DNA of 15,090 nucleotides from NCBI GenBank assembly GCA_001430745.1, contig KQ482066.1, positions 512,935-528,024 on the forward strand, written 5' to 3'. The notes beneath the pieces are model-generated. The model was not told the origin of the DNA, ran no database searches, and saw only the letters and a list, made by a program, of their open reading frames with translations. Position 1 is the first letter of the stretch, and every line of letters begins with the position of its first letter. A program made the translations under genes and the position numbers. Below, piece after piece: positions 2,453 to 4,023 of this stretch. Source of the DNA: Auxenochlorella pyrenoidosa. Lineage: Eukaryota > Chlorophyta > Trebouxiophyceae > Chlorellales > Chlorellaceae.

Positions 2453-4023
2453 ATGGTGTTCGTCTACACGGGTGCGTTGGGCCTCCAAACAGGCACAGAG
2501 GCGACGGCGGCCCAGCTCATGGTTGGCCCCGCCGCTGCACCTTTCAGTGCCGGCCGTGGACCCTGGCTGAACGTGTGCAACACAGCCAGAGAGCGCGGCG
2601 CAGCGTCGCTCGCTGATGCTAGGAATGGCTGCATGCTCGCCGCCATGCAGCGCGGAAACAGCAATGAAGCCTCCGGCGGCACGGCGGACTATCTGGGCAG
2701 CATGATGCCAAGGCTGCAGAGGCTTAAACTCCCTTGCAAGCTTGTCGCCGCCGCTGCCGCCCCTGCCCGACTCCGCCCTTGGCTGGCGCTCCGTTCTCCC
2801 GACCTCCCTTGCTTGCAGACCGCACCCATGTGCTGGACCTCGCGTCCGCGGCCACTGTGGCCGATGTGAAGGCGGCCATCGAGGCCCGCCAGGGTGAGGC
2901 AGCGCTCTGCACTCCACGCTGGCGCCGCTGCCGCAGAGTGATTGTCGCTGCTCCTCCTTAGCCCGCCTGCGTCTGCTGCCAGCACGTCAGCGCCTCGCGC
3001 TGCAAAGATGACACACCCCCTGTAAAATCCACCTGTTTGCCTCCTGGGTGCTTGCTGCTGCACCTGACCACGCCCCCCTCCACCCCACCCCACCCCCCCG
3101 CCAGGCATCCCCGCTGACGAGCAGCGCGTGATGTTCGGCGGCCGCCAGCTGGAGGATGCCGAGCGCCTGGAGGCCTGCGGCGTGAGCGATGACTCCCAGA
3201 TGTACATCCTCATGCGCCTGCTGGGTGGTGCCAAGAAGCGCAAGAAGAAGACCTACACCAAGCCCAAGAAGCAGAAGCACAAGTGAGACCTGGCGTCGCG
3301 GGCCAGGGGCGCAGCAGCGGCCGCAGCTGCAGCGGGTTTGGAACGCTTTTACGGCCAAGCTCTGCTCCCCACGGCTGATGGACGTGCCGAGGCTGAGCTG
3401 CGCTCGGGTCCTGCAGGGTGGACCTGACGGCTTGCAAGCAAGCCCCTCCGCCTCCCAATCCACCTGCCTGCTGACCACGCCTTGCCCCGCCCCTGCCCCC
3501 GCAGGCACAAGAAGGTCAAGCTCCGGGTGCTCAAGTTCTACAAGGTGGACGACTCTGGCAAGGTGCAGCGCCTGCGCAAGGTGTGCCCCCAGTGCGGCCC
3601 CGGCATCTTCATGGCCACCCACTTCAACCGCGTGTACTGCGGCAAGTGCCACCTCACCTGTGAGTCCGGCGCTGGCCGCAGGGCGGGGCCGGGGGGCAGA
3701 GGAGGAAACGCAGCGGGGGCCGGTGGCGGCAGGGGGCGATGCTGGTACCCGTCCTATGGGGGCGAGTCGATTGGCGGGGTTGGGTTGCTCCCTCGGGCCC
3801 TTTTCTGGCACAAGCGCTGGCTGTGCGCAGTGCAAGAGCAGGGGTAGTGGAAAGCGCGAGCCGTGCACCGAGCACATAAGCACTCGCTAGACACCCTCCC
3901 TGCCCACCCCTTGCCAGCTGGCTTGGGCACAGTAGGTAAAAAACCTTTTACCGACCATGCCTGCCCCGCCTCACCCTGCCTCCCCATGCAGACGTGTACG
4001 ACAAGGATGGCCAGACCGCTTAA
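2453..4023 (+). CDS. RPS27A: Divergent ubiquitin-like domain fused to ribosomal protein eS31 (S27a)
   Basis: Exons 2453-2471, 2819-2893, 3105-3282, 3505-3659 and 3992-4023 join in frame to 152 residues; all four introns are GT-AG. Residues 1-73 are a ubiquitin-like domain starting MVFVYTD, with the family's GIPADEQR and RQLEDAERL segments and ending RLLGG. Residues 74-152 are eS31 of the small ribosomal subunit: a basic linker (AKKRKKKTYTKPKK), KLRVLKFYKVDDSGKVQRLR, then a four-cysteine zinc finger (CPQC and CGKC) and a YVYDKDGQTA tail. In the family, the fusion is cut after Gly-Gly to release both parts. The ubiquitin part is three residues shorter than the usual 76 and keeps only the K27-equivalent lysine (here K24): K6 is Tyr, K11 Arg, K29 Ala, K33 Arg, K48 Arg and K63 Asp. 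Arg72 is kept; Arg74 is Leu. The start ATG sits in an ACCATGG context. eS31 identity is very secure; conjugation ability of the ubiquitin-like part is doubtful. Confidence 0.93.

Follow-up and report, generated by a model that had tools for sequence, protein, structure and literature searches.

Does the moiety that precedes ribosomal protein eS31 in Auxenochlorella pyrenoidosa still belong to the ubiquitin (Ub) pool, or has it become a different domain with a task of its own? The question is raised by a gene at positions 2453–4023 (+) of the window analysed here, by which we mean the whole 15,090-nt stretch of contig KQ482066.1 (assembly GCA_001430745.1). The gene encodes a ubiquitin-like domain (Ubl) fused to eS31, and this domain is shortened, holds one lysine and has diverged from ubiquitin. 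Our favoured reading, to which we assign a probability of roughly 0.7 on the strength of sequence comparisons, is that it would act as a cleavable, acidic cis-chaperone tag of eS31, a dedicated ribosomal Ubl derived from ubiquitin.

The gene consists of five exons in a single open frame of 152 codons plus stop, of which 73 encode the Ubl and 79 encode eS31, and its four introns (347, 211, 222 and 332 bases) are all GT-AG. Pfam recognised both the ubiquitin (E = 1.5e-15) and the Ribosomal_S27 (E = 9.5e-27) domains of the fusion protein, and full-length relatives (P0001, P0003 and P0004 of our protein set) are 83–90% identical to it, so that the match is not one of chance. With 57.1 bits against PF00240, where the curated cut-off is 25.4, the Ubl falls within the ubiquitin superfamily, and the beta-grasp fold of that family was scored as present; fold residues of ubiquitin and the terminal GG are retained. 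It lacks the marks of ubiquitin proper (76 residues, near-identity, seven lysines and an RLRGG end). Alignment bore out the replacements listed in an initial annotation of this DNA, namely K6Y, K11R, K29A, K33R, K48R and K63D, together with I44M, R74L and the RLLGG end. Six of the seven ubiquitin lysines are gone and the remaining one lies at ubiquitin position 27, so the description as nearly lysine-free stands; in the clade as a whole, where lysines tend to be lost, this count is among the lower ones. The length of 73 residues and the loss on the Leu8 side were also correctly given; of the three missing residues, two come from the Leu8 loop and one from close to the start, where M-V-F stands for M-Q-I-F. 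The span assigned to the domain, 2453..3228, began at the right base and stopped one base too early, the Ubl codons finishing at 3229, and the intron placed at 2472–2818 agrees with the gene model in its GT-AG ends and open frame. The MRLLGG end is joined directly to AKKRKKK, which is the arrangement of an RPS27A-type precursor, with an N-terminal ubiquitin or Ubl that ends in GG and runs straight into eS31. The GG-A/G-KKRKKK junction is present in 30 of 30 aligned rows, although these were partly selected for the junction.

Protein searches found the Ubl across green algae, showing that it is not private to this genome. Relatives were the best 120 of 1285 matches from the first search, the best 120 of 1448 from P0106, and 14 proteins, mostly Coccomyxa or partial records, from the Ubl part of P0019 alone; as the most similar of many, the relatives listed lean towards close kin. 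A Ubl was accepted as complete where the starting Met had a Phe close behind it and GG preceded A/G-KKRKK. By this rule 112 of 169 proteins were retained (57 were partial or did not fit it), and they comprised 56 canonical (at least 60 of 76 residues) and 56 divergent Ubls. The green-algal set is made up of 41 of the 56 divergent rows, all outside five other named groups; 26 carry an organism name (Nannochloris, Trebouxia, Coccomyxa, Myrmecia, Apatococcus, Symbiochloris, Chlamydomonas, Gonium, Volvox, Dunaliella, Haematococcus, Ostreobium and others), and we take all 26 to be green algae. Chlamydomonas schloesseri is among the species that carry the Ubl. Four rows (P0106, P0111, P0128 and P0129) are like this set.

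The two-residue loss at the Leu8 loop occurs in all 41 relatives, His13 in 40, Leu74 in 35 and the RLLGG end in 32; Lys27 is kept in 38, and Arg72, the residue read by the activating enzyme (E1) of ubiquitin, in 37. Lengths are 74 residues in 37 rows, 73 in two, and 75 and 76 in one each, and lysines number none in one row, one in 13, two in 17, three in nine and four in one. When the window Ubl is included (42 rows), the sites at least 90% conserved include derived ones (H13 98%, V23 95%, D25 98%, G60 100%, V61 95%), the ubiquitin-type sites F4, G35 and L56 are invariant, and so is the two-residue loss; the invariance of GG follows from the rule by which rows were selected. Fixation of derived residues across the clade points to a constrained new Ubl as opposed to a decaying ubiquitin and, judged from the alignment, is not the pattern expected from drift off ubiquitin alone.

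Net charge is 0 for ubiquitin, −5 for the window Ubl, +20 for the window eS31 and −8 for FUBI, the Ubl of eS30. Values for the 41 green-algal Ubls run from −8 to −1 (mean −4.6), and for the 15 divergent rows of other groups from −14 to −1. In the green-algal set basic residues fall from the 11 of ubiquitin to a mean of 6.3, whereas acidic ones hardly change (11 and 10.9). Charge compensation has been suggested for FUBI and S30 (PMC10611586), and in yeast the fused ubiquitin is reported to aid folding and solubility, while an uncut fusion can enter the 40S subunit and disturbs initiation (PMC8354635, PMC11274626). We propose that the Ubl arose where it now stands, by divergence of the ubiquitin in a Ub-eS31 gene, and that lysine loss was selected for charge, with escape from chain building as a secondary effect. 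The Ubl would fold first, shield the very basic eS31 until assembly and then be cleaved off after GG. Once released, and having neither K48 nor K63, it could form no such chains and would be degraded or used as a mono-modifier.

FUBI (MNSF-beta) is, like the window Ubl, an N-terminal Ubl on a small-subunit protein, although its partner is eS30/FAU of holozoans whereas here it is eS31. In both, two residues are gone from the Leu8 loop, His replaces Ile13, the tail is RxLGG, a single lysine stays at 27 and the charge is acidic; the loss, the histidine (FUBI His11) and the tail are among the features given for FUBI in PMC10611586. The initial annotation had named FUBI as a comparable lysine-poor case, and the likeness is closer than it could see. 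Position 71 is Met in the window Ubl as opposed to Gly in FUBI and in 17 of the 41 relatives. Two features of FUBI are reported to block most USPs, a nonpolar residue before GG and a wholly hydrophobic Ile44 patch. Because the window Ubl has the nonpolar residue, its processing by a restricted set of deubiquitinases (DUBs) is plausible, but the hydrophobic patch is missing, which makes this the weakest step of the proposal. An L72R change reportedly made FUBI partly reactive with USP42. The resemblance in several details suggests that evolution arrived at similar solutions on more than one occasion. A bolder version, which we put forward tentatively, is that green algae evolved a second FUBI on eS31, in which loss of the Leu8 loop and of Arg74 together with His13 would exclude most DUBs and leave one USP16/USP36-like enzyme to free eS31 at a fixed point in the maturation of the 40S subunit, with fungi near Savitreella and at least one further lineage (P0163) partly on the same path. 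If this were true, a shortened-loop, acidic Ubl with an xLLGG end would be a repeatable end state for ribosome-fused ubiquitins.

Several observations count against our favoured reading. FUBI has V40 and P47 (ubiquitin 42 and 49), which are reportedly tied to recognition by USP16/36 and to exclusion of other USPs; the window Ubl retains R42 and Q49, and the relatives have P at 49 in 7/41 and V at 42 in 0/41. Of the features known to restrict DUBs in FUBI, half are lacking. The window Ubl is also closer to ubiquitin (40% identity over aligned columns) than to FUBI (33%). Replacements held in common with FUBI number 10 of 33 in the green-algal consensus (3.1 expected) and 8 of 34 in the window (3.25 expected), yet the excess is similar elsewhere, the ratios being 3.4 in green algae, 2.5 in the window, 2.7 in dinoflagellate-type rows and 3.0 in fungal-type rows. 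With other lineages near equal, all-site likeness was dropped as evidence, and only the specific set of loop loss, His13 and tail was used. Two canonical sequences are a further difficulty. In a weakly resolved tree of eS31 only (99 rows, 77 columns, 37 of 96 inner branches open), a single starred set (97/96) holds all 39 green-algal rows, P0106, P0111, P0128 and P0129, and the canonical P0095, P0090 and P0104. P0095, from Tetraselmis, has a near-canonical ubiquitin and yet stands among the green algae; the tree was set aside on this point, as it cannot tell whether Tetraselmis kept or regained canonical ubiquitin. In P0104, from a 797-base metagenome contig, a canonical-type ubiquitin is fused to an eS31 that matches those of P0051 and P0054 at all of 76 residues; in these two records eS31 carries the divergent Ubl. 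Our guess is that P0104 is a chimeric contig; if it is not, it would point to reversion, by conversion back to ubiquitin.

The genome itself (51.6 Mb in 65 contigs) was searched in six frames, with only the best candidates scored. Within that scope the window gene is the sole eS31 locus; a second intact ubiquitin-eS31 gene, which the initial annotation had named, together with lack of expression of the present copy, as one finding that would overturn it, was looked for in the assembly and not found. The assembly does hold a separate canonical ubiquitin gene, in keeping with the annotation's view that the window domain has left ubiquitin behind. Canonical ubiquitin was found in this one gene, a three-exon fusion to eL40 on contig C2 (about 2341332–2342312) that differs from the standard ubiquitin sequence by D24E, and a ubiquitin-start pattern with at most one mismatch matched there and nowhere else in the assembly. 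Three assembly searches found no polyubiquitin gene among the best candidates scored, and such a gene may be missing from the assembly; if the absence is real, ubiquitin would be supplied by one ribosomal fusion gene. A ubiquitin-like match was also reported at C17:98279–98392 in an open frame of 13405 aa, yet same-frame stops lie upstream of the match.

The ubiquitin-eL40 gene bears on the origin of the Ubl. Its intron 1 splits codon 10 after the first base (ACG G|GC), and intron 1 of the Ubl-eS31 gene (ACG G|AC) has the same phase and the aligned place, with exon 1 two codons shorter just before it, whereas their second introns differ. From the match in place and phase, the Ubl probably diverged in place from a ubiquitin gene. 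The details shared with FUBI could instead be homologous, a FUBI-like domain having moved from eS30 to eS31 in green algae, but this is very improbable. Besides the intron match, PMC8354635 places FUBI-eS30 in holozoans and PMC10611586 gives Ubl-S30 fusions three independent origins, while fungal-type and other eS31 Ubls with the two-residue loss in the same place carry Phe13 or Gln13. In this genome the eS30 exons (C2:1834326 onward) start right after an acceptor with KVHGSLARAGK, no ubiquitin-family match lay near them among the best candidates of the assembly searches, and tblastn searches of the 3.1-kb eS30 locus with ubiquitin, FUBI, the window Ubl, P0019 and P0106 yielded no match with E below 0.26. 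As far as the exons located show, the eS30 of this genome looks unfused, and a partner swap of FUBI was rejected on intron position, distribution and the tblastn result. Hardly any credence attaches to a more trivial explanation, an error in the gene model whereby the real first exon, coding for residues of ordinary ubiquitin, would be found at another place. Exon 1 is indeed only 19 bases long, but P0001 begins MVFVRTDRTH and P0003 MVFVRTDVQH, which supports it. There are 31 ATG-to-GT candidates in the right phase at 2001–2818, and among the eight of at most 14 residues only that at 2453 resembles strand 1 of ubiquitin. Moreover, exons 2 and 3 are divergent whatever exon 1 is. In 21 relatives the predicted protein turns to unrelated letters directly ahead of the same D-R-T residues, as it would if the end of an intron had been read through there; as far as protein letters tell, this supports exon 1 indirectly. 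A 22nd match, P0154, was excluded because the pattern lay within eS31.

Where function is concerned, the fused ubiquitin might simply be decaying, as proposed by Catic and Ploegh (2005, as cited in PMC10457151): in the absence of recombination with other ubiquitin loci it would drift, with only a foldable, cleavable spacer still selected. Mean pairwise identity over the 42 rows is 57% for the Ubl against 86% for eS31, as this would predict, and Ub-S27a divergence is reported in many lineages (PMC10457151, PMC6332867). We consider it unlikely in view of the non-ubiquitin states fixed in these rows and of a charge shifted to the acidic side in every divergent row examined, in green algae through loss of basic residues only. 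It is about equally improbable that the Ubl, once released, is active as a modifier in its own right and has conjugation targets of its own. The conserved derived residues, together with the retention of Arg72 and of GG (itself part of the selection rule), leave room for a role beyond that of a tag, to which the initial annotation would probably confine it; for FUBI, conjugation is said not to be reported (PMC8122580), while PMC8354635 cites two proposed partners. The cis-chaperone tag is the reading we prefer.

Comparable domains occur in other lineages. Three fungal-type rows, including Savitreella phatthalungensis (P0164), have lost two residues and end in RLLGG (two) or RLCGG (one) with Phe13; P0163 and P0160 show the same loss with SLLGG and GLDGG ends, respectively, and the loss combined with xLLGG and Phe13 is found in P0149, P0154 and P0163. 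Position 13 in rows with loop loss is His, Phe, Gln or, in one green alga, Asn. By these alignments, loop loss is recurrent across lineages. Six dinoflagellate-type rows (P0120, P0146, P0147, P0148, P0151 and P0169) retain Leu8 and have lost Arg72 (Glu in five, Asp in one), so that the ubiquitin E1 perhaps does not read them; the taxid of P0147 is that of Gymnodinium catenatum, and the other five group with it in the eS31 tree (96/96). With zero to two lysines, they are a separate ribosomal-Ubl case.

These results would replace a loose remark, that some organisms carry an odd ubiquitin on S27a, by a pattern that is defined and can be tested, and they suggest that eS31 in these algae is no longer a source for the ubiquitin pool. 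If lineages separately reach a like tail, loop and charge, this would argue for selection to shield a basic partner, and perhaps also to avoid general deubiquitinases, over mere release from concerted evolution. Because some green algae are laboratory organisms, they offer a way to identify the processing enzyme and to follow what becomes of the Ubl after its release.

Table 1. Parts of the Ubl-eS31 gene, in window positions.
Feature	Position	Strand	Remarks
Exon 1: MVFVYT and base 1 of codon 7; Ubl beta-strand 1	2453–2471	+	Resembles start of P0001, P0003
Intron 1: GT-AG, phase 1, ubiquitin codon-10 position	2472–2818	+	Phase as in ubiquitin-eL40 intron 1
Exon 2: DRTHVLDL...EARQ; strand 2 and helix; His at ubiquitin position 13; sole lysine	2819–2893	+	
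Intron 2: GT-AG, phase 1	2894–3104	+	
Exon 3, first part: Ubl end, ...MRLLGG	3105–3229	+	Whole exon 3 is 3105–3282
Exon 3, second part: eS31 start, AKKRKKKTYTKPKKQKHK; predicted cleavage after GG at 3229	3230–3282	+	Cleavage putative
Intron 3: GT-AG	3283–3504	+	
Exon 4: zinc-finger part of eS31, Pfam Ribosomal_S27	3505–3659	+	
Intron 4: GT-AG	3660–3991	+	
Exon 5: eS31 C-terminus YVYDKDGQTA and stop	3992–4023	+	

A bacterial-type promoter scan upstream of the gene, of a type that does not apply to this genome, gave no match. Elsewhere in the window, a SAP-domain protein (PF02037, E = 2.1e-15) is encoded at 883–1455 (−), adjoining an acidic frame at 214–882 with many Glu, Ala and Pro residues. 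Frames at about 4590–5360 (+) contain APYGR and GWGFFIGSKIAW, presumably steroid 5-alpha-reductase motifs; Pfam returned no match for two neighbouring frames there, the frame with GWGFFIGSKIAW lying outside that scan. A frame at 7786–8418 (+) combines a long glutamine run with VLDLACGSGEATL, which we take to be a methyltransferase-like motif, and frames at about 10.8–14.1 kb (+) with GECGSC, SEQQMIDC and YPYTG look to us like two tandem papain-type cysteine protease genes.

Among known systems, the land-plant and Tetraselmis ubiquitin-eS31 proteins (P0118, P0095) have the same architecture and eS31, but their ubiquitin, unlike that of the window, is canonical or nearly so. UBL-1-eS31 of C. elegans (Jones and Candido 1993, as cited) likewise has a Ubl in the place of ubiquitin on eS31, and an alignment with PDB chain 9bh5_Af, which we take to be from C. 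elegans, spans 1–147 against 1–146. No eS31 with a green-algal name appeared in the 60 of 401 PDB matches listed, a sample that does not show such a structure to be lacking. Giardia Ub-S27a is divergent and was proposed to be a chaperone, like the window Ubl (Catic 2007, as cited in PMC10457151, PMC11354881), but it is reported to remain uncleaved owing to a changed Gly75 (PMC11354881), whereas the window retains GG. In Plasmodium and other protists the eS31-fused ubiquitin has diverged and another ubiquitin locus is canonical (Catic and Ploegh 2005, as cited; PMC10457151), the same combination of the kind described by Catic and Ploegh that the ubiquitin-eL40 gene provides here; length is said to be conserved in Plasmodium (PMC10457151), as opposed to the loss of two residues and the RLLGG tail in the window. 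The initial annotation's premise that eS31-fused ubiquitin is normally identical to polyubiquitin was too general. Nematodes and many protists are reported to have a divergent Ub-S27a (Catic and Ploegh 2005, as cited in PMC10457151, PMC6332867), and the feature extends over green algae, although its recognition of the departure in this gene was sound. Chlamydomonas is listed with ordinary ubiquitin-S27a and -L40 fusions, its divergence unremarked in the available part of PMC6332867, and the literature searched, in which subscription papers were few, held no account of a green-algal, FUBI-like Ubl-eS31.
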